The translations under genes were made by a program, and so were the position numbers. A stretch of 64,000 nucleotides of DNA from Aquisphaera giovannonii (GTDB lineage Bacteria; Planctomycetota; Planctomycetia; Isosphaerales; Isosphaeraceae). The stretch lies in assembly GCF_008087625.1 (NCBI RefSeq), contig NZ_CP042997.1, forward strand, positions 6,076,001-6,140,000, read 5' to 3'. Below are positions 11,465-44,330 of this stretch, piece by piece. Numbering within the stretch: position 1 is the first letter of the stretch; each line of letters starts with the position of its first letter. Below the pieces are notes generated by a model that saw nothing but the letters and a program-made list of their open reading frames with translations, did not search any database and had not been told where the DNA came from.

Positions 11465-14400
11465 CTAGACGACCTGGCGGCTGATCAGCTCCTGGAAGGC
11501 GCCCGGCTCTTCCCGGAGCTGCTCGTAGCGGCCGGACTGGACGATCCGGCCCTGCTTGACCACGTAGATGCGGTCGGCCTCGACGACGGTGGTCAGGCGG
11601 TGGGCGATGACGACGCGGGTGACGCCGCGGAGCTCCCGGGCGATGCTTTGGGTGACGATCGCCTGGGAGAGGTTGTCCAGCGCGCTGGTGGCCTCGTCGA
11701 ACATCAGGATCCGGGGGCTGCGGACCAGGGCGCGGGCGATCAGGAGCCGCTGCCTCTGCCCGCCGGAGAGGCTGGAGCCCCCCTCGCCGACGACCGTGTG
11801 CATCTTCATGGGCATGTCCCGGATCTCCGCGTCCAGGCCGGCGAGCCGGGCGGCCCGCCAGGCGTCGTCCATGGTGAGGCCCGGGGCGAAGCCGACGATG
11901 TTGCTGAAGATGTCGCCCGGCATGAGCTGGGCGTCCTGGAGGACGACCCCGATCTGGCGGCGGACCTCGCGGATGTCCAGCGTCGCGAGGTCGCGGCCGT
12001 CGTAGGTGACCGAGCCGCGGTCCGGGGCCTCGAAGCCGAGCAGCAGCCGGAGGATCGTGGACTTGCCCGAGCCCGAGGCGCCGACGATGGCGATGAACTC
12101 GCCGGGGCGGACCTGGAGGTCCACGCCGTCGAGCACCCGCGCCGCGGTCTCCTGCCCGGGATAGCGGAACGTCACCCCGCTGAGGGCGATCGCCCCGTTC
12201 AGCCGCAGCGGCTCCGGCGCGGCGGCGGGGAACTCCGGGACCGTCTCCAGGACCGGCCGGATCCGCTCGTAGAGCGGCGGGACGTCGAGCAGCCCGAGCG
12301 CCGTGTAGGCCACGGCCAGGACCGAGGCGATCAGGTTGGATAGCGCGATCGAGAGCGCCAGGAAGTCCCCGGTGCTCAGGCGGTCGGGGTCCAGGCGGAT
12401 CGCGCCGTAATAGACGACCATCGCCAGGAGCATCGGGAAGACGGCGAGGAATCGGTGCAGCCGGTTGGCGAACCGGCGGGCCTTGATCATGAGGCCGAGC
12501 TGCTCGCCGTAGAGGTCCGACCAGCGGGCGAAGGCGCGGTTCTCGGCGCCGGCGGTGCGCAGCTTGGCGATGCCGCCGACGACCTCGAACAGGAAGCCGA
12601 TGATCGAACCCTCGACCTGGCGGATCCGCGCCTCCTGGCGGAGCTGGCCGGCGAGCAGGAGGAGGATCGTCAGGGCCATCAGCGCGATCAGGGCCGTGCA
12701 GATGGAGGCGAGACGCCAGCTATACCAGAAGAGGAGGGCGAGGTTGGAGAGGCTGAAGAGCCCGCCGACGAGGGCCGACGCCATGGCGCCGGAGACCTTG
12801 CGGAGGACGACCCCCAGGCCGAGGGTCCGGACGGCGAGGTCGCCCGAGGAGAAGCCGGCGAAGAAGCGGGTGGGGAGCCGCAGCAGGCGGTCCCAGACCG
12901 CCGGCAGGACGGCGGGGACGACCTTGCCCTCGATCCGGAGCAGGGCCATGCCCTCGACGACCTCGAAGATGGCCGTGGCCACGGCCATCGCGGCCAGCAG
13001 CAGGCAGAGGGAGGCCAGGCGGACGCGGCCCTGCGCGGAGATGCCGACCTCGGGGATGACCTGGTCCACGAGGACCCCGGCGCCGACCGGCATGGCCAGG
13101 CCGAGCAGGCCGCCGAGCGCCGCCATCGCCAGGACCAGGCGGACCTCGCGGGAGACGCCCCGCCTGGCGAATCGGGCGAGGTCGCGGAGGGTCAGCGGGC
13201 CGTCCGGGAGGGTCCGGTAGAACGTCCAGGCGGTCCGGGAGAGCCGCGCGGCCTGGTCGCGGCGGATCGGCTCGCGGCGGTCCGTGGCCGGGTCGTAGAG
13301 GTCGTATCGGCGGGCGGCGAACCGGCCTCGGCCGCGGTCGAGGCCGGGTATCAGCGCGACCGGCTGGGGCCGGCCCTCGGCATCGTCCAGGGACGCCAGC
13401 AGGGGCTCGCCGCCGCGTCCGGTCCAGCCGCGGGGCAGGACGACCTGTCGGGCGTGGAAGCCGGAGGAGCGGGCGATCTCCTCGAGCGTCGTCCCGCCGC
13501 CCGGGCGGTCGTCGTCGGTCGCCTTCCGGGGCGCGTGCACCTCGATGCCGAGCTCCCCCCCGACGACCCGGCAGGCGGCGAGCAGGGGATCCTCCTCGAC
13601 CGGCGGCAGGAGGTCCGCCTCGTTGGCCGCGGCGGCGAGCGCGGCGGAGATCCGCCCCACCAGCGTCCGGTCCCCGGTGGTCGCCGCGTGCAGCTCCCCC
13701 CAGCGGCGCGACACCTCGGCGTCCTGCAGCCACGCCAGGTGGTCGAGCGCCGCGCGGTGGAAGTCCATCAGCCCCTGCCAGGGGTCGCCGGACTGGATCA
13801 TCGCCAGGGTGTCCGACGCGACCACGCGGCAGGGGCCGTCGCACGTGAGCCACAGGTGCTCGCTGATCGGGAACCGCGCCCGGTGCTCGGTGACCGGCAG
13901 CGGGTCCTGGCCGAGGAACCGCGAATGCCCGTCGAGGTGGCGGATCCAGGCGACGCCGCCCCGGATGCCGTAGCGGTCCCCGCCCCCCAGCTCGGCCGGT
14001 ACGCCCGCGGCCAGGTCGTGCCGGCCCAGCACCTGGCCCCCGGCGCCGAGGGCCCGCCCGACGCGGAAGATCCAGTCGTCGAGCAGGATGGCGACCTGCT
14101 CGGCCAGGGATTCCTCGAAGCTGAGGCGGATCAGGTCGCCGCGATGGAACTGGATGAGGTCGGCGTCCCCGGCGCCCACGGCGATGAGGCGGCCGCCGAG
14201 GCGGCCCCGGACGCCGCTGATGGCGAAGATCGAGCCCCCCTCGTCCACCCGGCAGAGGTGCCGCCGGCGCCCGGGGCCGCCGTCGGGGCCGGGGACGGTG
14301 AAGAAGACGTCCACCTGGCCGGAGGAGACCCACCAGACCGATTCCGGGTCGTCCAGCGGCAGGGGGCGGTTGGCCGCGGCGGTCTCCGCCCGGCCCGTGG

Positions 14401-16804
14401 CCCGCAGCTCGTCGATGAGGAACCGCGGCCCTTCCCCCGCGGCGGTCGCGGGCGGCGAGGGGGCCAACGGCCCGGCCGGGACCCCGGCGGGGGCCGCGGC
14501 CCGGGGGGCGATGCCCTTCGCCCCGGCCCGCCCCGGCGCCCGTCGGTGCATCGCCACCCTCCCGGGCCGCGCGGCGGGCAGCCCCTGGCCGGCGAGCAGG
14601 CGGGCGTATTCCCCGTCCGCGTCCTCGATCAGGCTGTCGTGCGTCCCCCTCTGGAGGACCCGGCCGCCGGAGAGGACGATGATCTCGTCGCAGTCGCGGA
14701 TCGTGCTCAGGCGGTGGGCGATGATCAGGCAGGTGCAGCCGCGGCGGCGGAGCTGGTCGTCCACGATCAGCTCGGTCTTCGGGTCCAGGGCGCTGGTGGC
14801 CTCGTCCAGGATCAGCAGGCTGGGATCCCGGACGAGCGCCCGGGCGATCTCCAGCCGCTGCCTCTGCCCGCCGGAGAAGTTCCGGGCCCCCTCCGCGACG
14901 GCCGCGTCGTAGCCCCCCCGGCGCTGGAGCAGGTCCAGGTGGATGGCCGCGCCGAGGCCGGCCTGGATGAGGCGCCCGCTGGCGACCTCGTCGTCCCAGA
15001 GCGTCAGGTTCTCCCGCACCGTGCCCTGGAACATGGCGATCCGCTCGTCCACCATCGCCACCGAGTTGACGAAGACCTGGCGGGGGATCTCCGCGATCGG
15101 CCGGCCGTCGTGCAGGACCTCGCCCCCCTGGGGCCGGTAGAGCCCCGCGACCAGCCGGGCGATCGTCGTCTTTCCGCTCCCGGAGCTGCCCACGAGCGCC
15201 ACCCGCTGGCCCGGCTCGACGACCATCGAGAAGCCCCGGATCAGCGGCTCCTCCGCCGTCCGGAAGTAGCTGAAGGTGACGTCTCGCAGCTCGAGCCGCC
15301 CCGAGAGCCGCGGCGATGCGGGGCGGGCGGTGGAGACTCCTTCGGGAAGCCGGCTCGCCGCCGGGCCGCCCGCGGCCGCCTCCTCGCGGCGCTCGAGCAG
15401 CGGGTCGGCGTCGTGGTGGCGGACGTCCTCGATCCGATCCAGGTCCGCCCGCAGCTCCTGCACCTGGGAGCCCAGCCGCGCGATGTCGCGGAACGGCTGG
15501 TGGAAGCTCGCCAGCAGCGTCTGGAAGGCCACCAGCGCCCCGATCGGCAGGACGCCGGCGGCGACCCGGCGCCCGCCCAGTCCCAGCACCGCCACGGTGG
15601 TCAGGGCGGCCAGCAGCGACGGGATCGCCACGAAGACGGCGTCGAACCGGCCGAGCTCCTGCTCGGCGGTCAGCACCCGGGCCTGCTCCCCCGTCCACCG
15701 CACCAGGAGGTCGGACTCCGCGCCGGTCGCCTTGACCGACTCGATCACCTGCACGGCCCACATGATCCCGCCGGCGAGCCGGCCGCGGACCTGCTCGATC
15801 ACGCGGTTCTGGTCGATCCGGCGCCGGCTGAACCATCGCAGCGCGACCAGGTTGAGGCCGCCGATCCCCACGCCCACGGCGGTCAGGACCGGGTCCTGCG
15901 GGAGCATCGCCGCGACGTAGAGGGCCAGGCTCAGGAAGCCCACGGCCGTGGTGGCGAGCTCGCCGGAGATCAGCCGGGCCACGGTCGCCGTGCTGACCAC
16001 CCGGCCGACGATGTCCCCGGCGTACCGCCGCTGGAAGAAGTCGATCGGCAGCCGGAGGACGTGCCGCAGGAACCGCACCGCCTCGGTGAGGGCCAGGCGC
16101 ACCTCCAGCCGGGTGAGGTAGACCTGCTGGAGCGTCACCGCCGCGAGGCGGGCCGCGGCGGTCGCCCCCATCGCCAGCAGCAGGGGGCCCAGCCAGTCCC
16201 GCCGGCCCTGGATGAGGATCTCGTCCACGAAGATCCGCTGGTAGCCCGCCGCCGCCAGCGACGGGATCACCAGCGCCAGCCCCGCGAGGATCACGAACAG
16301 GAGCGCCGCCTTGGAGCCGGCCAGGCGGCCGGCCAGGCTCGGCAGCGTGCTCGGCCGCCGGCCCCCGGGCCGGAAGTCCTCCCCCGGCCGGAACGTGAAG
16401 GCGATCCCGCTGTAGTACCGGGCGAACTCCTCCCGCGAGACCCGCCTCCGCCCGCACGCCGGATCGTTCAGGTAGACCCAGCCCCGGGCGAATCCCTCGA
16501 CCACCAGGAAGTGGTTCCACTGCCAGAGCACCATGAAGGGGGGCTGGCGCGTGTCGATGCCCGCGGCCGACTTCCGGAAGGCATCCACGTCCATCCCGTA
16601 ATGCCGGGCCGCCTCCTTGATGTGGTAGGCATTGCTCCCGTCCCGCGAGACCCCGCAGACGCTCCGGAGCACATCCAGCGGCACGTACAGCCCGTGATAC
16701 TCCAGGATGATCCCGAGCGCGGCGGCCCCGCACTCGACCGCCTCCATCTGGAGCACGACCGGAGTCCGGACGGGCCGATACCTCTTCCTGCGGCTGCTTG
16801 CCAT
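11465..16804 (-). CDS. Fused C39 peptidase/double ABC peptide exporter
   Basis: A single uninterrupted frame of 1779 aa combines what are normally two proteins. Residues 10-135 are a C39 peptidase: Gln19 and Cys25 in QMEAVECGAAALG, His98 in WNHFLVV, Asp114 in LNDP. A membrane domain (165-440) and a first ATPase follow, with GSSGSGKTT near 540, FSGGQRQR and LLILDEATSALD. A Pro/Ala linker near 750-800 leads to a cyclic-nucleotide-binding-like region (VDVFFTVPGPDGG), a second membrane domain (about 1180-1480) and a second ATPase (GASGSGKST near 1575, LSGGQRQR, LMFDEATSALD). The halves correspond to NHLM ABC1 and ABC2, usually encoded by two genes. The protein should cleave double-glycine leaders and export the cargo. 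The HlyD partner (19046-20401) and a GG-leader precursor (20788-20955) lie on the same strand. Confidence 0.88.
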   Translation of the reverse strand: MASSRRKRYRPVRTPVVLQMEAVECGAAALGIILEYHGLYVPLDVLRSVCGVSRDGSNAYHIKEAARHYGMDVDAFRKSAAGIDTRQPPFMVLWQWNHFLVVEGFARGWVYLNDPACGRRRVSREEFARYYSGIAFTFRPGEDFRPGGRRPSTLPSLAGRLAGSKAALLFVILAGLALVIPSLAAAGYQRIFVDEILIQGRRDWLGPLLLAMGATAAARLAAVTLQQVYLTRLEVRLALTEAVRFLRHVLRLPIDFFQRRYAGDIVGRVVSTATVARLISGELATTAVGFLSLALYVAAMLPQDPVLTAVGVGIGGLNLVALRWFSRRRIDQNRVIEQVRGRLAGGIMWAVQVIESVKATGAESDLLVRWTGEQARVLTAEQELGRFDAVFVAIPSLLAALTTVAVLGLGGRRVAAGVLPIGALVAFQTLLASFHQPFRDIARLGSQVQELRADLDRIEDVRHHDADPLLERREEAAAGGPAASRLPEGVSTARPASPRLSGRLELRDVTFSYFRTAEEPLIRGFSMVVEPGQRVALVGSSGSGKTTIARLVAGLYRPQGGEVLHDGRPIAEIPRQVFVNSVAMVDERIAMFQGTVRENLTLWDDEVASGRLIQAGLGAAIHLDLLQRRGGYDAAVAEGARNFSGGQRQRLEIARALVRDPSLLILDEATSALDPKTELIVDDQLRRRGCTCLIIAHRLSTIRDCDEIIVLSGGRVLQRGTHDSLIEDADGEYARLLAGQGLPAARPGRVAMHRRAPGRAGAKGIAPRAAAPAGVPAGPLAPSPPATAAGEGPRFLIDELRATGRAETAAANRPLPLDDPESVWWVSSGQVDVFFTVPGPDGGPGRRRHLCRVDEGGSIFAISGVRGRLGGRLIAVGAGDADLIQFHRGDLIRLSFEESLAEQVAILLDDWIFRVGRALGAGGQVLGRHDLAAGVPAELGGGDRYGIRGGVAWIRHLDGHSRFLGQDPLPVTEHRARFPISEHLWLTCDGPCRVVASDTLAMIQSGDPWQGLMDFHRAALDHLAWLQDAEVSRRWGELHAATTGDRTLVGRISAALAAAANEADLLPPVEEDPLLAACRVVGGELGIEVHAPRKATDDDRPGGGTTLEEIARSSGFHARQVVLPRGWTGRGGEPLLASLDDAEGRPQPVALIPGLDRGRGRFAARRYDLYDPATDRREPIRRDQAARLSRTAWTFYRTLPDGPLTLRDLARFARRGVSREVRLVLAMAALGGLLGLAMPVGAGVLVDQVIPEVGISAQGRVRLASLCLLLAAMAVATAIFEVVEGMALLRIEGKVVPAVLPAVWDRLLRLPTRFFAGFSSGDLAVRTLGLGVVLRKVSGAMASALVGGLFSLSNLALLFWYSWRLASICTALIALMALTILLLLAGQLRQEARIRQVEGSIIGFLFEVVGGIAKLRTAGAENRAFARWSDLYGEQLGLMIKARRFANRLHRFLAVFPMLLAMVVYYGAIRLDPDRLSTGDFLALSIALSNLIASVLAVAYTALGLLDVPPLYERIRPVLETVPEFPAAAPEPLRLNGAIALSGVTFRYPGQETAARVLDGVDLQVRPGEFIAIVGASGSGKSTILRLLLGFEAPDRGSVTYDGRDLATLDIREVRRQIGVVLQDAQLMPGDIFSNIVGFAPGLTMDDAWRAARLAGLDAEIRDMPMKMHTVVGEGGSSLSGGQRQRLLIARALVRSPRILMFDEATSALDNLSQAIVTQSIARELRGVTRVVIAHRLTTVVEADRIYVVKQGRIVQSGRYEQLREEPGAFQELISRQVV

Positions 16805-17382: not shown

Positions 17383-18948
17383 ATGATGCGCACCAGATCG
17401 GCCCGCATGTCCTTCCGCCCGTCGCTCGGGGGCATCCAGCTCGAGGAGCGGGTCGTGATGAGCACCGCCACCGCGGCCGCCACGGCCCAGGCGACGGTGA
17501 CCCGCCGCGAGCTCAACCAGGCCTACCGGGCGCAGTTGAGGTCGGCGGCCAATGACCTCCGCACCTACGTCAATACGCAGATCGCCGGCGCCTATGCGGG
17601 CGGGACGCCGAGCGCCGAGACGCTGGCGGGCCTCAGGTCGCAGATCGAAGGGGCCGTCAACGCCACGGCATTCCGGGTTTCCAGCCAGCTCGCCCTCCTC
17701 CCCAGGGCCACCGATCGCCTGGTGGCCCGGGTGCAGGACCAGCTCCTCGGCGGCGGGCGGACGAGCCTCACGGGCCGCATCGATTCGCTCATCTCGTCGC
17801 CGCGGACCAGCCGGTCGGCGAATGCCCTGACCGCCGCGGTGGGCCGGGCGATCACCCGCACGACGGCCCTCGAGACCGCCCAGACGAGCAACTTCGTCAG
17901 GACGAGCCCCATCTTCGCCAACGCGATCGACACGACGAGCGGGGCCCGGCTCCCCATCCAGAACTACATGGCCCAGCAGGTGGTCAGCCAGTTCGCCAAC
18001 ACCTTCGGGGCGCTCGGCTCGGGCTTCGGGAACGTCGCCAACACCGCGCTCATAAACAACGGCGCCATGATCACCGACCCGGCCGTCCAGCAGACCTTCG
18101 CCAACCAGTTCAACGCGGCCGTCGGCATTGCGGCCAACCAGCTCGGGAACAACCTCGCCGTCTTCCCGAACGTCCCGAACCTGTTCCTGAGCACGACGAC
18201 CGCGGGCGCGGGGGCGACCGGCGGGACCGGCGCGGCCACCGGCTCCAACCCGCTGACCGGCGTCGGCAACCTCCTCTTCGGCACGACCGCGGGAGGGTCC
18301 CCCACGGCGATCACCACGTTCGCCAGCGCCCTCTCCTCCGCCCCCACCACGGCCACGGACTTCCTGCCCGCCGTGAACACCGCGTTCAACAACACCTTCC
18401 AGAATATCGGCTCCACTCTCGGGTCGTACTTCGGACTGTCGACGCCGGCCGGAGGGTACACCCTGCCCACGAGCAACTTCTCGAGCGTCTTCTCGCCGAC
18501 GTTCGCCAACCTGGGTAACGGCTTCAACGGCGGGAGTTCCATCGGCCCGATCGGATTCGGCACGTTCAATGCGTCGACCGGCACCTCGACCGGCACCAAC
18601 GCCCTCAACAACTACTATTCGAGCCCGTTCGGGTCCGGGTTCTACGGCGCGACCCTCGCCCAGAACACCACGCTCGGGTTCCCGACGTCGACCTTCCTGG
18701 GCTTCGGGCTGAACAGCACCGGCACCGGCACCGGGACGGGCATCGGCGGGACCGGGACTGGCACGGGCATCGGCGGCACGGGCACCGGGACCGGGACGGG
18801 CATCGGCGGGACCGGCACGGGCACCGGGACTGGAACGGGCACCGGGACTGGCACCGGTGGCACCGGCACGGGAACTGGTACGGGCACGGGCACCGGGACT
18901 GGCACCGGTGGCACCGGCACCGGCACCGGGACGAACATGGGCATGTGA
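17383..18948 (+). CDS. Secreted planctomycete protein with Gly/Thr repeat tail
   Basis: The start is the ATG at 17383, seven bases after GAGG; the frame extends upstream but without support. The 521-aa product opens with [18 protein letters not shown], which resembles the LExR-type N-terminal motif of planctomycete exported proteins. A helical Ala-rich region (residues 30-200) follows, then an Asn/Gly/Phe-rich region. The last 75 residues consist almost entirely of Gly-Thr repeats broken by GIGG, encoded by tandem six-base ACCGGG-like units at about 18711-18940. No catalytic motif is visible. It sits divergently between exporter and HlyD genes, so it might be a surface partner or a passenger. 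The repeat tail lacks a GG leader, so it is probably not itself C39 cargo. Function unknown. Confidence 0.7.
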
Positions 18949-19045: not shown

Positions 19046-20401
19046 TCAATGCCAGCCGAGCGTCTTCTTGATCCAGGGGACGACCAGCGAGATGAGTCGC
19101 TGTTCCTCCACCACGATGGCGGCGTCGCAGAGGGTGCCGGTCTTGAGGTGCTGGCCGGACCCCGACGAGGAGGACCAGACGAAGGGGTTGTTTCGGTCCG
19201 GCGGCGTCGAGTCGTGGCCCACGCCGGCCGCGTCCTGCGCCGGGGCCCTCTCGAGCTCGACGTGGACGCGGAGCAGGACCCCCGGGGCGTATCGCTTCAG
19301 GAAGGTCTCCACGAGGTCCGGATGCTGGAGCGCCGCCTCCATGGCCAGGCGCGTGGCGGGCAGCTCGGAGACGGCGACGACCTTGCCCTTGAGGAACCCG
19401 TGCTCTTCCCGCTTCACCGTCGCGGGCATGATCTCGACGGCGTTCCCCTCGTCGATCTTCTTCCCCTCCCCGGCGGGCACGAAGACGATGGACTCGTAGG
19501 GCTTGCCCACGTCGTCCAGGCCCGGCCGCGTCCCCTTGGGCGAGGAGAGGAGGATCACCGGCTGCCCCTCCCGGACGTACTCGTCCCGGGCGGAGAGGAT
19601 CTGCGCCACCCTCCCGCTCGCGTGGCTGACGATCTGCGAGGTGCGGTCGAACTTGGCCTGATCCAGCGTGAGCTTGGTCTTGAGCTTGCTGATCTCGAGC
19701 TGCCGCTGGAGCTTGAGCTTGGCACGTTGGTTCTCGGCGACGAGCTGCGTCAGCTCGAGCTCCTTGAGCCGGGACTGGCCGTCGTCGACGTCCTTCTGGA
19801 TCGAGTACACCTGCTGCCGGTCTTTCAGGTAGTCGAGGTTCGAGAGCTGCCTGATGAGCCGGAGTCGCTCCGATCCCTGGACGATCTTCCGGGCGATGTC
19901 GAGCGCCCGCGTGGAATTCGCGACGGTCGCGTTGATGGCGTCCCTGAGGCGCCCGATGGCCCGCTCCTGGGTCGCCCGCTCGTCGCCCTCGAACTCGGTG
20001 AGCTTCTGGTCCTCGCGCTCGAGCGCGCGGATCCGCTCGGCCGCCTCCCGGATCGTGTCCTGGAGGTCATCCTGGATGATGCGGCCGAGGGCCTGGCCCT
20101 CCGTGACCTCCGCGCCCAGGACCACGCCGAGCTCGTCGATCCGCCCGGTACCCAGGGCCCGGACCTGCGCCAGCCGGTCCTTCTTGATGAGCAGGATGCC
20201 TTCGCCGGTCACCTTCTTGGGGACGCGGTAGACGAAGGCGAAGGCCAGGGCCGCCGCGCAGACCGCGAAGAGGGTGCCGAGCGAGATCCAGGCCTGGATG
20301 GTCGTCACCCGGACCAGGGTGTCGAGCTGCTCGAGGGCCACCGTCGACGCGTCGGACGGGGCGTCGGCGGGCGACTGGGGGGCGATGGCGGGCTCGGTCA
20401 T
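19046..20401 (-). CDS. HlyD-type adaptor of NHLM peptide exporter
   Basis: This 451-aa membrane fusion protein starts at ATG 20401, with gggag seven bases upstream. One membrane helix lies near residues 36-58 (AWISLGTLFAVCAAALAFAFVY). A short beta-barrel/lipoyl strand follows (GEGILLIKKDRLAQVRALGTGRIDEL), then a long coiled-coil hairpin to about residue 270 (LKLQRQLEISKLKTKLTLDQ) and the second lipoyl half (ASGRVAQILSARDEYVREGQPV). The C-terminal barrel ends GTLCDAAIVVEEQRLISLVVPWIKKTLG, as in NHLM secretion proteins. It should bridge the fused ABC exporter and the periplasm or outer membrane. The exporter gene lies beyond the divergent repeat-protein gene, and the precursor gene is 386 bases upstream on the same strand. 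Confidence 0.88.
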   Translation of the reverse strand: MTEPAIAPQSPADAPSDASTVALEQLDTLVRVTTIQAWISLGTLFAVCAAALAFAFVYRVPKKVTGEGILLIKKDRLAQVRALGTGRIDELGVVLGAEVTEGQALGRIIQDDLQDTIREAAERIRALEREDQKLTEFEGDERATQERAIGRLRDAINATVANSTRALDIARKIVQGSERLRLIRQLSNLDYLKDRQQVYSIQKDVDDGQSRLKELELTQLVAENQRAKLKLQRQLEISKLKTKLTLDQAKFDRTSQIVSHASGRVAQILSARDEYVREGQPVILLSSPKGTRPGLDDVGKPYESIVFVPAGEGKKIDEGNAVEIMPATVKREEHGFLKGKVVAVSELPATRLAMEAALQHPDLVETFLKRYAPGVLLRVHVELERAPAQDAAGVGHDSTPPDRNNPFVWSSSSGSGQHLKTGTLCDAAIVVEEQRLISLVVPWIKKTLGWH

Positions 20402-20553: not shown

Positions 20554-20787
20554 GTCTGTCCCATAAGCAACGCTTCCTGCAATCCCTCTCAAGCAGGCGA
20601 GCCGATTCCGGTTCTCCCCCTTAGGAAGGGGGAGCCAGAGGGGGTGCATCGGTCCGGGCCGAGGCGATCGAAATCACCCCCATGTATCCCCCCTTCGTAA
20701 GGGGGGAAGCGGATCCGGACCTTCCTCTTGCCGGAGGCTGGTCGCGACGAGACGCTGCCCGGGGTACAGGACTCGTGGGACAGTCAC
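20554..20787. repeat. Palindromic dispersed element, copy 1
   Basis: The element is bounded by gtctgtcccataagc on the left and gtgggacagtcac on the right, which are near-inverted. Inside are two hairpins built on ccccctt...aaggggg, around 20617-20636 and 20686-20710. It matches the 44098-44330 copy along most of its length. Its right end abuts the stop codon of the GG-leader precursor gene. It fills the gap between precursor and HlyD genes, where its hairpins could act as a terminator or attenuator. Confidence 0.8.
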
Positions 20788-20955
20788 TCAGTGGGTCGTC
20801 GGGGGCAGCGGGGCCTTGGGAGGTGCGGGGGCGGGCCCCGTCGCGACGCCGGCGCCCCCCGAGATCTTCCGGAGGTCGTCCGCGGAGAGGTGGACGGTCT
20901 CGTCTTCCTTCTTCTTCTTGTCGGGCTGCTCTTGGACGGGCTTGTTCGTGGACAT
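20788..20955 (-). CDS. Double-glycine leader precursor peptide, 55 aa
   Basis: A 55-aa frame starts at ATG 20955 with AGGAGG five to six bases upstream, an excellent ribosome site. The leader is charged and Lys-rich (EQPDKKKKEDETV) and ends LSADDLRKISGG at residue 34. This is the classic L(S)xxDLxxIxGG pattern cut by C39 peptidases after Gly-Gly. The remaining 21 residues begin AGVATGPAPAP and are rich in Pro and Ala, with no Cys, so no lanthionine or disulfide is expected. No modifying enzyme is encoded nearby. The gene is on the same strand as the HlyD adaptor and the fused C39/ABC exporter, so it is the likely cargo. It lies 155 bases after the receptor-kinase gene. Whether the product is a bacteriocin, a signal or a structural peptide cannot be told. 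Confidence 0.78.
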   Translation of the reverse strand: MSTNKPVQEQPDKKKKEDETVHLSADDLRKISGGAGVATGPAPAPPKAPLPPTTH

Positions 20956-21110
20956 GCGTTCCTCCTGGGGAAGGTCGGTTCGCGAGTCGATCTGCAGAGG
21001 AGTACGGACGATCGAACGGGTATCTTACACCGACGCCTTCGCCCCGGCGCATTTCTTTCTTTTTCCGGCGGGCCCGGGCGGCGACGGGCCGCGAGGGGAG
21101 GGGCGGCGGG

Positions 21111-24100
21111 TCAGAGTCGGAACGGCTGCGCGGGGATGTCCGGGAACTCCTCGTCCGGCCAGGCCGGGCCGTCGCGGAGCAGGGGGCCGAGGTCGGGCTG
21201 GGATCGGAGGGCGTCGGGGTCGGGCAGGCCCCTGCGGATGGCGATCCGGAGGTGGGAGATCGCGACGCCGCGATCGGACCGGCGGGCCTCCTCGCCGGCC
21301 GGGGGCAGGGGCGTCTCGCCGTAGCCGATGCAATTCGCCGATGCGGCCTCGCGGGCGGCCAGGTCCAGGGGCTCCCGCGGCGGGCGGGCCTTCCAGAGGT
21401 CGGCCCGCTCCGCCCGGAGCCGATCGGCCCGGGGCCCGTGCGGGCCGGGCCGGGGGAGCCCGGCGAGGTCGCGGAGCGTCTCGGAGAGGGCCCCGCGGAG
21501 GGAGCCGGCGGCCGCCCCGTCGGGGGCCTCGCGGCGGAGGGCCTCGCGGGCGAGCGTCGCGGCGCGCTCCAGCCGGCCGGAGGCCTCCGGGGCCTCCCCT
21601 CGCTCGGCCAGGGCCCTCGCCTCGCGATCGAGCAGCTGCGCCCGGAGGGCGGCCAGCACCCCCTCGTCGGGAGCCGGGGCGGGGATGCGGTCGAGGGCGT
21701 CGCGGGCCCGGGCGAAGGTCGCCGCGGCGGACGACGGGTCGGCCTGCTGGCGCTCGATGTCGCCCATCGCGATCGCCAGGCCGGCGAGCTGCGCCGCGTA
21801 CGCGGGCACGTCCGGCCGGGCCGCGAGCAGGGCGATCCGCCGGTCGAGCGCCTCGCGGAAATGCGGCATCGCCAGGTCGGGACGCCCCATGTCCGCGTGC
21901 GTCTCCCCCAGGTTCGACAGGCTGACGCAGATCTCGTTCTTGAGCTCCGGATCGTCCCCCGCGCCCGGCTCGATCTGCTCCTGGAGGCCCAGTGCCTCCT
22001 CGAACGGCTTGAGGGCCAGGTCGTTCCGGCGGGCCTCGTCGTGGATCACCCCCTCGAGGGTCGCCACGCGGGCGAGCTGCCTCCGGTAGGATGGCTCGTC
22101 CGGGTCGTCGCCGCGGAGCTTCTCGAGGATCGCCCTCGACCGGGCCGCGAGGGCGAGGGCCTCGGCGGGGTGGCCGAGGTCGTGCTCGACGTGGGCCATC
22201 GACCATTCGTTGCGGGCGAGGGCGGCCTGGTATTCGCGGACCGATCCGGCGAGCTCGACCAGCCTGAGGCGATACGACTCGGCCTCCCGGTAGGCCCGGA
22301 GGGCGGACTCGCGGAGCCCCTGGTCGACGCGGATGGCGCCGATGTTCTCGTAGCTGGTCGCCAGCATGTGCTGCAATTCCAGCGGCTTGGGCCCCTCCTT
22401 GACGCCGTCGAAGATCTCGCGGCAGACCTTCTGGAACTCCCCGTAGGACCTCATCGCCGCGTCGCCGCGCCCGCGGTGGTATTCGACGAAGCCCATGCGA
22501 TCGATGACGAAGGCCAGGGCCTTCTTGTAGTCCAGGTCGTCCCCCGGGGCGGCCGCGATGAGGGCCTCGAGGATCTCGCGGGCGCGATGGAGCGCATCCA
22601 TGGCCTCCTCGGGCCTCGAGGCGAGGGAGTGGCGGTAGCCGATCTCGGAGAGGCAGGAGGCGACCATCCGCCGGAAGCGGGGCTCCTGCGGCCGGGCTTC
22701 CGAGGCCCGCTCGTAGATCGTCATGGCCTCGGACAGGCTCGCGACGGCGTCCTCCGAGTGCGCCGCGTCGGTGATCTCGCCGATGGCGAAGAGGCAGTCG
22801 GCGACGCGGAGGCGGCGCGCGGGGTCCTCGGGCGCGGCCGCGGCGAGGGCCCGCCAGAGGTCGAGGGACGAGCGGTAGTACGCCAGGGCCTCGGACGTCG
22901 GGCTGACGAATCGGCTGATGTCCCCGAGGCGGTAATAGGCGCCGGCGAGCTGCTCGCGGAGCCTCGGGTCCTGGCCCCGCTTCTTGACGAACTCCTTGTA
23001 GAAGGGCAGCGCCGTCCCGAGCAGCTCGCGGCGGAGCTCGCTGACGTCCAGCGTGTCGTACTTCTTGAGGAGCTCGTTCTCGCTCACGCCGGTGAGGTAG
23101 CGGTTGACCGCGTCGAGGGCCGCCTCGAAGTTGGCCTCGGCGTCGTTGCGGGCCGCGTCCAGCCGGATCATCGCGGCGGTGGAGATGAGGGTGATCGCCA
23201 CGAGCGAGGCGGCCGCCGCGTAGGTCCAGGTGCGATGCCGGCGGAGCCATCGCGACAGCCGCTGGGTCCGCCCCTCCGGGAACGCGGAGACCGGCTCGTC
23301 GGCGATCCAGTGCTCCAGGTCCAGGGCCAGCTCGCGGGCGGAGGGGTAGCGATCCTCGGGCAGGAAGGCCATGGCCTTGCGGCAGACGGCCTCCAGCGCG
23401 GGCGGGATCGTGGCCAGGACCGCCCGCGGCGGGGGGACGTCCCCGCTCGCCACCCTGACGAGGATCTCGTGCGGCTTCAGGTCCGCGAGCGGCCGCCTGC
23501 CGGCGAGGAGCTCGTAGAGGGTCGCCCCCAGGCTGTAGACGTCGCTGGCCTTCCCCAGCTTGTCGATGTCCCCCCGGGCCTGCTCGGGGCTCATGTACGA
23601 GGGGGTGCCCATCTTCGTCCCCTGCATCGTCCGATCCGCCGGGGGCGTCCCGATGCCCTCGGCCGGGGGCGGCGGGGGCGAGGTCGCCTCCCCGTCGCCC
23701 CCGGCGGGCTCCCCCGCGGCGGGCTCCCCCCCGGCGGCCGGCGGCGCGCCGGCCGCGACGTCCGCCCGGCCCAGCACCTTGGCGAGGCCCCAGTCCACGA
23801 TCAGGGTCTCGCCGTACTCGCCCAGCATGATGTTGGCCGGCTTGAGGTCCCGGTGCAGCACGCCCCGGCTGTGGGCGTACTCCATCGCGTCGCAGACCTC
23901 CAGGAACCGGCGGAGCAGCTGCTGGAACTCCACGCCCCACTCCGACCGCCCGCGACGCCGGCCGGCCGCCGGCTCGTCGCGGCCCCGGTGGAACCTGCGG
24001 ATCGCCTCCGAGAGGCTCTCGCCCCGGATCAGCCGCATCGCGTAGAAGGGGCGGCCCCGGGCATCGCTCCCCAGGCTGTACACCGGCACGATGCCGGGAT

Positions 24101-24761
24101 GCTCCAGGTTGCCCGTGATCTCCGCCTCCAGCAGGAACCGGTCGTTCTGGTCGGCGCGGCCGGCGAACTCCGGCTGGATCTCCTTGAGGGCCACGTCCCG
24201 CTGCAGCTCCAGGTCGCGGGCCCGCCAGACCTGCCCGATCCCCCCCCTCGCGTGGAGGTTGATCCGCTGGAACCGCTGCTCCTGCGTGAGCCGCGGCAGC
24301 TCGCGGGCCCGGCCGGCCCCGGGCCCGGCCCCCGCCGCCGCGCCGGCCCCCGCCGCCGGGCCCGCGCCCAGGGCGGCCGTGGCCTCGGGGTCGTCGCCCG
24401 GGGGCCGCTCCGGGGCCCGGATCGTCGAGCCCAGGGCCTCGGCCAGGGTCTGCGCCAGCAGGGTCCGCGGGGCGGCGTCCTCGATTTCGGTGAGGATCTC
24501 GTGCGTCAGGGTCTCCGCGTTCCACGCCTGCAGGCTCGAGAGGAGGTCGCCGTTGTGCCGCTCCAGGTGGCCGGCCGCCAGCACCCTGAGGGCGCCGATC
24601 CGCGGGCCGTCCAGCAGGCCCTGCTCGCGGAAGACCTCCTCCAGCCGGCCCTCCGGCCGCGCCGACAGCGCGGCCATCGCGGCGTGGAGCTCGTCGCGTC
24701 GCAGGGCGCCGGTCAGCACCGCCAGCGCGGCGAGCAGCAAGTCCTCGTTGATCTCTTGCAC
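21111..24761 (-). CDS. Receptor Ser/Thr protein kinase with TPR domain
   Basis: The 1216-aa protein starts at GTG 24761 (gaggag six bases upstream). After a helical N-terminus and an Ala/Gly/Pro linker, the kinase domain covers about residues 180-470: ARGGIGQVWRA loop, DVALKEI lysine, HRDLKPANIM catalytic loop, GTPSYMSPEQ activation segment. The metal motif is VDWGLAK, with Trp in place of the usual Phe of DFG. A membrane helix lies near 515-535 (AAAASLVAITLISTAAM). The extracytoplasmic half (about 560-1150) is made of TPR-like helical repeats with many Tyr/Ala pairs. This architecture is common in Planctomycetes and its ligands are unknown. It lies divergently from the sufR-like gene and upstream of the precursor peptide on the same strand. 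Confidence 0.92.
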   Translation of the reverse strand: MQEINEDLLLAALAVLTGALRRDELHAAMAALSARPEGRLEEVFREQGLLDGPRIGALRVLAAGHLERHNGDLLSSLQAWNAETLTHEILTEIEDAAPRTLLAQTLAEALGSTIRAPERPPGDDPEATAALGAGPAAGAGAAAGAGPGAGRARELPRLTQEQRFQRINLHARGGIGQVWRARDLELQRDVALKEIQPEFAGRADQNDRFLLEAEITGNLEHPGIVPVYSLGSDARGRPFYAMRLIRGESLSEAIRRFHRGRDEPAAGRRRGRSEWGVEFQQLLRRFLEVCDAMEYAHSRGVLHRDLKPANIMLGEYGETLIVDWGLAKVLGRADVAAGAPPAAGGEPAAGEPAGGDGEATSPPPPPAEGIGTPPADRTMQGTKMGTPSYMSPEQARGDIDKLGKASDVYSLGATLYELLAGRRPLADLKPHEILVRVASGDVPPPRAVLATIPPALEAVCRKAMAFLPEDRYPSARELALDLEHWIADEPVSAFPEGRTQRLSRWLRRHRTWTYAAAASLVAITLISTAAMIRLDAARNDAEANFEAALDAVNRYLTGVSENELLKKYDTLDVSELRRELLGTALPFYKEFVKKRGQDPRLREQLAGAYYRLGDISRFVSPTSEALAYYRSSLDLWRALAAAAPEDPARRLRVADCLFAIGEITDAAHSEDAVASLSEAMTIYERASEARPQEPRFRRMVASCLSEIGYRHSLASRPEEAMDALHRAREILEALIAAAPGDDLDYKKALAFVIDRMGFVEYHRGRGDAAMRSYGEFQKVCREIFDGVKEGPKPLELQHMLATSYENIGAIRVDQGLRESALRAYREAESYRLRLVELAGSVREYQAALARNEWSMAHVEHDLGHPAEALALAARSRAILEKLRGDDPDEPSYRRQLARVATLEGVIHDEARRNDLALKPFEEALGLQEQIEPGAGDDPELKNEICVSLSNLGETHADMGRPDLAMPHFREALDRRIALLAARPDVPAYAAQLAGLAIAMGDIERQQADPSSAAATFARARDALDRIPAPAPDEGVLAALRAQLLDREARALAERGEAPEASGRLERAATLAREALRREAPDGAAAGSLRGALSETLRDLAGLPRPGPHGPRADRLRAERADLWKARPPREPLDLAAREAASANCIGYGETPLPPAGEEARRSDRGVAISHLRIAIRRGLPDPDALRSQPDLGPLLRDGPAWPDEEFPDIPAQPFRL

Positions 24762-44097: not shown

Positions 44098-44330
44098 GTC
44101 TGTCCCATAAGCGACGCTTCCCGGAAGCCTCGTGGAGAAGGCCGGCCGATCCCGGTTCTCCCCCTTACGAAGGGGGAGTCAGAGGGGGTGTATCGGTCCA
44201 GGCCGAGGCGATCGAACTCACCCCCCTGTATCCCCCCTTCGTAAGGGGGGAAGCGGGTCCGGCCCTCCGCGATGACCGGGGCACTCCGAAGGAGTCAGGG
44301 GCCCTCGGCGCGGGCTTATGAGACAGTCAC
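44098..44330. repeat. Palindromic dispersed element, copy 3
   Basis: This is the best-preserved copy. The left end gtctgtcccataagc and the right end gcttatgagacagtcac are inverted matches. Two internal hairpins carry the same ccccctt...aaggggg stems (44160-44180, 44229-44251) as the 20554 copy. The last four codons and the TAA of the Gfo/Idh/MocA gene lie inside the right end, so the element supplies that gene's 3' terminus. Confidence 0.85.

Follow-up and report, generated by a model that had tools for sequence, protein, structure and literature searches.

A double-glycine precursor peptide candidate beside a fused C39 ABC exporter and HlyD adaptor in Aquisphaera giovannonii

Results

Organization of the locus

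The window analysed here, a 64,000-nucleotide stretch of the Aquisphaera giovannonii genome (3 contigs, 10,526,296 bases), carries on one strand a short gene, then an HlyD-type adaptor (20401-19046) and then a large exporter (16804-11465) (Table 1). A preliminary description of this DNA had reported a 55-residue frame at 20788-20955 without naming its strand. The frame exists and lies on the minus strand, where it reads MSTNKPVQEQPDKKKKEDETVHLSADDLRKISGG-AGVATGPAPAPPKAPLPPTTH; the plus strand at the same positions holds unrelated sequence. Minus-strand translation also bears out the Cys-free 21-residue tail claimed to follow a double-glycine (GG) leader, and the strong ribosome site ascribed to the gene is an AGGAGG 5 nt before the ATG.

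Table 1. Features of the locus, in window coordinates.
Feature	Position	Strand	Basis
Fused exporter, 1779 aa: C39 peptidase and ABC1 half, CNB-like region, ABC2 half	11465..16804	(-)	TIGR03796 and TIGR03797
Predicted tandem cyclic-nucleotide-binding-like (CNB-like) fold, residues ~792-1051	13652..14431	(-)	AlphaFold2 and Foldseek
Peptidase_C39 domain, residues 14-141, with Q19, C25, H98 and D114	16382..16765	(-)	PF03412, E 1.2e-27
Low-complexity gene with C-terminal Gly-Thr repeat, between HlyD and exporter	17383-18948	(+)	No Pfam or NCBIfam match
HlyD-type adaptor NHLM_micro_HlyD (TIGR03794)	19046..20401	(-)	219.7 bits against a cut-off of 156.2
Predicted double-glycine precursor peptide, 55 aa	20788..20955, stop codon included	(-)	Sequence; orthologs
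Predicted released tail, 21 aa, AGVATGPAPAPPKAPLPPTTH	20791..20853	(-)	Sequence; composition; fast change relative to leader
Leader, residues 1-34, ending in VHLSADDLRKISGG	20854..20955	(-)	10 invariant residues in 6 sequences; short helix 25-31 (AlphaFold2)
Ribosome-binding site AGGAGG, ATG 5 nt on	20961..20966	(-)	Sequence; same in A. insulae
Possible -10 element TGTAAGAT, weak	21022..21029	(-)	Also precedes the genes of A. insulae and G006
Ser/Thr kinase with TPRs, doubtful member of the system	21111..24761	(-)	PF00069; 4/6 peptide loci

The leader pattern occurs in one short open reading frame of the window and in 0/40 first-order Markov windows. Neither Pfam nor NCBIfam matched the peptide at E <= 10, solved structures gave two weak matches (best E 0.93), and its own genome contains no further copies, the next profile match there scoring E 1.33. 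Its AlphaFold2 model, of modest confidence (mean pLDDT 70.6), contains a single helix at residues 25-31, which are positions -10 to -4 counted back from the predicted cleavage site.

A dispersed repeat made of two palindromes (CCCCCTT..GAAGGGGG) 73 bp apart occurs twice in the window, at 20615-20706 and 44159-44250; the palindrome pattern has a genome count of 58 + 47, and its reversed control a count of 0. The copy at 20615-20706 sits between the peptide gene and HlyD, a spacing that in A. insulae is merely ~100 bp. Because this palindromic repeat separates the two genes, and because a sigma-70 scan of the region recovered no promoter, transcription of the peptide gene is not assured.

Upstream of the peptide is a gene for a Ser/Thr kinase, in which the kinase domain is followed by a hydrophobic stretch near residue 514 and then by TPRs. 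It is next upstream, on the same strand, at 4/6 loci that carry the peptide and is missing at the other two (G037 and G041; we refer to genomes by handles where they must be told apart). Relatives occur in G015, G036, G040 and G044, genomes in which our HlyD search found nothing, and such kinases are common in planctomycetes. We therefore dropped the kinase as an obligatory partner, given its absence from two peptide loci and its presence in genomes lacking the exporter. The low-complexity gene between HlyD and exporter was also considered as encoding the true substrate and rejected: among the loci compared, only A. insulae has a relative at this place, and the protein has no family match. The other neighbors are Uma2, DUF1501, PSCyt2/PSD1, a helix-turn-helix protein, SufC/B/D and rhodanese. 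In agreement with the earlier statement that no modifying enzyme is encoded nearby, a scan of about 5.3-30.5 kb of the window found no tailoring enzyme among 11 neighbor proteins by Pfam or among 5 (SufC and four of the 11) by NCBIfam, and no recognizable immunity gene among the same proteins.

A fused exporter with a predicted CNB-like region

All three families of the NHLM export system score above cut-off at this locus. Besides TIGR03794, which substantiates the HlyD/NHLM adaptor named in the preliminary description, TIGR03796 (ABC1 with peptidase) reached 1244.3 bits against a cut-off of 853.3, with its best stretch at residues 13-737, and TIGR03797 (ABC2) reached 1077.1 bits against 709.4, with its best stretch at 1071-1778. 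The C39 and ABC parts of the exporter had thus been recognized correctly, but its make-up of two fused half-transporters (ABC1-ABC2) with a predicted CNB-like region had been missed. The catalytic residues claimed for the C39 domain (Gln19, Cys25, His98 and Asp114) are present and identical in 6/6 aligned exporters, an alignment that does not include G037. The nearest solved relative of the domain is 6mpz (E 2.7e-35), the double-glycine-motif protease domain of an AMS/PCAT transporter, which we infer to be the LahT structure of PMC6363468.

We modelled exporter region 752-1175 with AlphaFold2 (mean pLDDT 67.7). Over model residues 41-290, roughly 792-1041 of the exporter, block means ranged from 60 to 93; after model residue 300 (about 1051) most were below 60. 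Foldseek matched this region to the tandem CNB domains of PKA regulatory subunits, with a best E of 9.4e-9 and probability 1.00. The query TM-scores were low, 0.12-0.23 in the best 50 Foldseek rows, and the CNB assignment is for this reason one of fold, not of ligand; such low scores can arise when two modelled domains turn against each other. None of the 25 Pfam families listed is a CNB family.

Similarly long exporter frames, of 1793 to 1948 aa, are found in G002, G006, G029, G037 and G021. At eight other planctomycete NHLM loci, ABC1 and ABC2 lie beside HlyD in separate frames in seven, and the contig of the eighth holds ABC1 only. The idea that the ABC1-ABC2 fusion is confined to the Isosphaeraceae was ruled out by a frame at one of these eight loci (in genome G240, L152:1975-6810, plus strand) that matches both halves. 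This second exporter of G240 is a 1612-aa frame with a C39 domain and two ABC halves, both below their cut-offs (ABC1 598.5 bits, ABC2 597.5 bits); its two halves are spaced too closely to leave much room for a CNB region, and it represents a second kind of fused exporter. On a Nostoc plasmid, ABC1 and ABC2 are split into two frames, and an 86-aa GG frame directly precedes HlyD.

The peptide gene accompanies the HlyD gene in six genomes

Orthologs of the peptide lie upstream of the HlyD adaptor in 6/45 genomes of the family Isosphaeraceae, the same six that have a close relative of this HlyD. Searching 99 genomes with the single peptide sequence ranked the window genome (G000), G002, G006, G029, G041 and G037 first, with E values from 1.4e-31 to 9.3e-4; the next match (E 0.009) was a frame with no HlyD match in 1.5 kb on either side. 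A profile search of the 45 family genomes returned six matches at E <= 2.6e-22, the next being 0.011. Since this profile was built from the six orthologs themselves, it is the single-sequence search that serves as the independent test. The six sequences all come from one family.

All six peptide genes are found upstream of the same kind of HlyD gene, at a distance of about 90 to 420 bp. HlyD itself had seven matches at E <= 1e-10 in the 45 genomes, six of them with the peptide, and the 38 genomes without HlyD held no peptide match better than E 0.011. Fisher's exact test for the co-occurrence (six of six vs 0/39) gives 1.2e-7, a value that overstates the case because the genomes are related. 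The exporter is on the contig of the peptide in 5/6; the G037 contig ends inside the exporter start, and most of that exporter is on another contig. In G041 (L042) the peptide has no start codon where the others start and the exporter frame contains one in-frame stop; at a contig coverage of 1.3, error and decay are indistinguishable here. A fused exporter is also present in a seventh family genome, G021, whose HlyD is more divergent and follows an unrelated gene; we found no GG peptide there, either by pattern in a 19.9-kb stretch or by reading 9.8-13.5 kb of that stretch. Viral contigs contained no relative of this HlyD.

We also looked for the leader elsewhere in the related genomes. Seven weaker frames were read, some of them with ISGG or a leader-like stretch, and none combines hydrophobic residues at -4, -7 and -12 with GG.

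The leader is conserved and fits published rules for C39 substrates

The preliminary description had proposed conservation of the leader and GG site in related genomes as a check on its reading. The six orthologs, every one of them followed by an HlyD of one kind, pass it: neither GG nor any key leader residue varies among them, and the invariant columns are K15, K16, T20, V21, L23, L28, I31, S32, G33 and G34. When A. giovannonii is compared with A. insulae, 12 of the last 20 leader codons are identical, 8 differ silently and 0 are replaced, vs 4 identical, 4 silent and 10 replaced among the first 18 tail codons (ungapped). With an expected silent fraction of 0.258 for random changes in the leader, 8/8 silent changes have a chance of about 2e-5. 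The leader is thus under purifying selection, and the combination of conserved leader and variable tail is the usual pattern of a leader that is read and a product that runs free.

Counted back from Gly34, I31 is position -4, L28 is -7 and L23 is -12. In the account of LahT150 available to us (PMC6363468), the residues at -4, -7 and -12 occupy hydrophobic pockets, residues -4 to -11 make a short helix, and substrates with a charged replacement at -4 or -7 are not processed. The leader described here has the hydrophobic residues at these three positions and the Gly-Gly/Ala/Ser cleavage site of that account, all of it invariant in the six orthologs, and a cognate C39 ABC exporter with intact catalytic residues is encoded alongside.

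Tails and other candidate substrates

The six tails are 18-27 aa long and consist to 67-91% of Pro, Thr, Ser, Gly, Ala and Asn. All lack Cys, Asp and Glu, contain one Lys each and have Thr/Ser; there is one aromatic residue, in 1/6 tails, and GRAVY ranges from -0.20 to -0.97 (n=6). By this composition they are unlike a membrane-active peptide or a lanthipeptide core. In NCBIfam and Pfam, the best profile match of the orthologs is CCRG-2 RiPP (NF033456; E 5e-4), found for 2/6 members, the window peptide not among them. Weaker matches were to a pheromone VP1 model (best E 0.016, 3/6 orthologs), a lactococcin G-beta model (best E 0.061, 3/6) and TIGR01847 (best E 0.06, 2/6). In our reading, these weak matches to leader-bearing models reflect resemblance at the level of the leader.

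The window genome contains no NHLP (TIGR03793) or Nif11 (TIGR03798) precursor at E <= 0.001, the best NHLP match being E 0.377, and on this ground we rejected such a precursor as the real substrate. Leaders of either kind were likewise absent at this threshold from G002, G006, G029 and G021; G037 and G041 have NHLP-like frames elsewhere in the genome. Across the 33 genomes examined at E <= 0.001, NHLP matches occur in 7 and Nif11 matches in 8. A Nif11 match is on the contig of HlyD in G103, G114, G161, G240, G337 and G421, and an NHLP match in G166 and G436. By these match listings the leaders differ, and therefore the same kind of export machine pairs with different leaders in different families.

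Short GG-leader frames lie 0.8-1.1 kb upstream of HlyD at 5 of 28 other planctomycete HlyD loci, in two families: four in f26 (G403, G376, G140 and G408), e.g. MSDENKISDADLEGVAGG with a Lys/Asp/Pro-rich tail, and one in f14 (G101), MPKNRPINDEDLKKVSGA with a Thr/Pro/Gly-rich tail. These candidates were called by pattern alone, conservation forming no part of the call, and because the scan is by pattern the count is a lower bound (at least 5/28). The gap to HlyD leaves room for another gene. Not every GG peptide near a more distant HlyD gene has a hydrophilic tail: in G316 (L111:1008-1172, minus strand), a 54-aa GG frame, MKTISNEDMSKVEGG followed by a hydrophobic tail, lies beside an HlyD below the NHLM cut-off and would seem more bacteriocin-like than the window peptide.

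Discussion

The 55-aa frame is, very probably, a precursor exported by the adjacent exporter, a judgement that covers precursor and export and not function. It is based on conservation, linkage, the presence of catalytic residues and fit to published C39 rules, and the invariant GG leader, the HlyD linkage and the NHLM scores together back the earlier proposal of a double-glycine precursor served by the adjoining C39/ABC exporter and HlyD. That the frame arose by chance beside an exporter of other substrates is very improbable: short Pro/Ala-rich frames are common in high-GC genomes and the G041 copy lacks its start, but the leader pattern is absent from Markov windows, the orthologs occupy the same place in five other genomes and the changes in the leader are silent.

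We propose that the product of 20788-20955 is a dedicated substrate of the adjacent exporter. Its short leader helix would bind the N-terminal C39 domain of the 1779-aa ABC1-ABC2 protein by way of Ile(-4), Leu(-7) and Leu(-12); Cys25, His98 and Asp114 would cut after Gly34, and the fused transporter together with HlyD would then carry the 21-residue tail outward. Any outer-membrane channel would have to be supplied from another source. Lying between the two ABC halves, the CNB-like region probably gates transport in response to a small cytoplasmic ligand. The product would be a short, unmodified, disordered and species-variable peptide rich in Pro, Thr, Ala and Gly. To judge from sequence, export of the tail is well supported; cleavage, secretion, gating and lack of modification are what we infer from it.

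Outside the cell, the released peptide may act as a signal or as a surface or matrix (aggregation) peptide. We give this joint function slightly better than an even chance; some other function, or a hidden modification, is the less probable outcome, though one to be reckoned with. A signal or surface/matrix peptide also appears more likely than a membrane-active bacteriocin. If the tail were a class II-type bacteriocin that kills competitors, the label 'NHLM bacteriocin export' could be taken literally, and the family names of exporter and adaptor, the weak matches to lactococcin G-beta and TIGR01847 and the differences between the tails of different species would all fit. We consider this unlikely: a class II core is amphipathic or hydrophobic, and short tails with no Cys, one aromatic residue in six sequences, one Lys each and negative GRAVY speak against it, as does the lack of a recognized immunity gene among the neighbors scanned. 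Few aromatics, a single Lys and a negative GRAVY, with no Cys, are not the make-up of a membrane-active peptide.

About equally unlikely is that the frame encodes a RiPP precursor and that an enzyme from another locus modifies its tail, for instance by glycosylation or phosphorylation of Thr/Ser, residues that all six tails contain. A Ser/Thr kinase next upstream at four of the six loci would suit such a scheme. However, two peptide loci do not have this kinase, and four genomes that lack the exporter contain relatives of it. Its matches to lanthionine synthetases are limited to the kinase domain and score far under the cut-off, and the neighbors scanned include no tailoring enzyme, so that any such enzyme would lie farther off. 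The kinase could instead be a receptor and the peptide its ligand, making an autocrine signalling pair from one locus. Its kinase domain, hydrophobic stretch and TPRs, and its adjoining, co-oriented position at most of the loci, would agree with this; the same two absences, and the same four genomes with a kinase relative and no exporter, make it a little less likely still.

The exported, unmodified peptide that we favor has counterparts in several described systems. Closest in architecture are the cyanobacterial group VII clusters of Wang, Fewer and Sivonen 2011 (PMC3140520; also PMC4558948), in which, in the parts of these papers available, a single large exporter joins a C39-ABC to a peptidase-less CAP_ED (CNB) ABC, with HlyD and small double-glycine precursors of 50-116 aa nearby (PMC3140520). 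The Aquisphaera locus likewise has a fused C39-ABC/CAP_ED-type exporter, an HlyD and a GG precursor, and its fusion is a single 1779-aa frame with both halves above cut-off and a CNB-like fold assigned by predicted structure only. It differs from group VII as described there in its planctomycete host and in its one precursor with a Pro/Thr-rich tail (18-27 aa across the orthologs). The likeness, as described, would be one of architecture. The NHLM transport cluster of three genes was described by Haft et al. 2010 (PMC2887384); all three of its families score above cut-off here, but the short 34-aa leader belongs to neither of the NHLP and Nif11 families that accompany such systems in the available account.

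In Synechococcus elongatus, the small GG proteins EbfG1-4 need the C39 peptidase PteB for efficient secretion and are required for biofilm, according to the text available of PMC4997328. Pro, Tyr and Ser abound at the N-termini of two of the mature EbfG proteins; in that account, however, the mature proteins are 6-7 kDa and there are four of them with suggested redundancy, and we claim no sequence relation. HetC of Nostoc PCC 7120 is a C39 ABC exporter with a cyclic-nucleotide-binding domain, for which export of a differentiation signal peptide has been proposed (PMC10986499). According to the available text of that paper, neither a membrane-fusion protein nor a GG peptide is encoded near hetC, and its substrate is not known; the HetC CNB domain is N-terminal and binds ppGpp in vitro, whereas the CNB-like region here lies between the ABC halves. 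CCRG-2 peptides, cyanobacterial and related to prochlorosins, have similar precursors in some other clusters, as far as the accessible text of PMC8120280 goes. The two orthologs matching that model presumably do so on the leader; the window peptide itself does not match it even at E <= 10. The literature matches listed, from a search with most subscription journals outside its scope, contained no description of this peptide or of a secreted planctomycete peptide signal. In the accessible part of the Tautonia paper, A. giovannonii is credited with one 'bacteriocin' cluster and P. borealis with none; because P. borealis, which we take to be G029, has the locus too, that count cannot be tied to it.

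The precursor family is, by its sequence, new, and the kind of system is known. NHLM exporters are named 'bacteriocin export' by the family model, and conservation here points to a substrate that is neither NHLP, Nif11 nor bacteriocin-like. As a tentative generalization, more doubtful than the function proposed above, single short unmodified GG peptides encoded beside NHLM exporters may serve Planctomycetota as signals or matrix peptides outside the cell, and a nucleotide-like ligand may switch their export by acting on the CNB-like region between the ABC halves. If true, the phylum would have a peptide-based cell-cell or surface system. The GG frames with hydrophilic Cys-free tails at 5/28 loci in two other planctomycete families point toward it, and the hydrophobic tail beside the sub-cut-off HlyD of G316 points the other way. 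Biofilm formation is one use to which such peptides can be put, as EbfG1-4 indicate (PMC4997328, in the part available), and HetC is a precedent for a developmental role of a C39 exporter that carries a CNB domain (PMC10986499, likewise). The 21-residue tail is a synthetic target for direct tests of what NHLM exporters do in planctomycetes, and substrates of the orphan exporters of the phylum are to be sought upstream of HlyD.

Two further frames are worth recording. One, in G408 (L085:164-424, in the orientation of HlyD), is an 86-aa frame upstream of HlyD with two GG-like sites, WDLDKVAGG and GLQKIDGG, and is possibly a double precursor. The other (L157:113-355, minus strand) is an odd GG-type candidate near another planctomycete NHLM locus, an 80-aa frame in which LSDDDLESVVGG is followed by an Arg run and Gly/Asp repeats.
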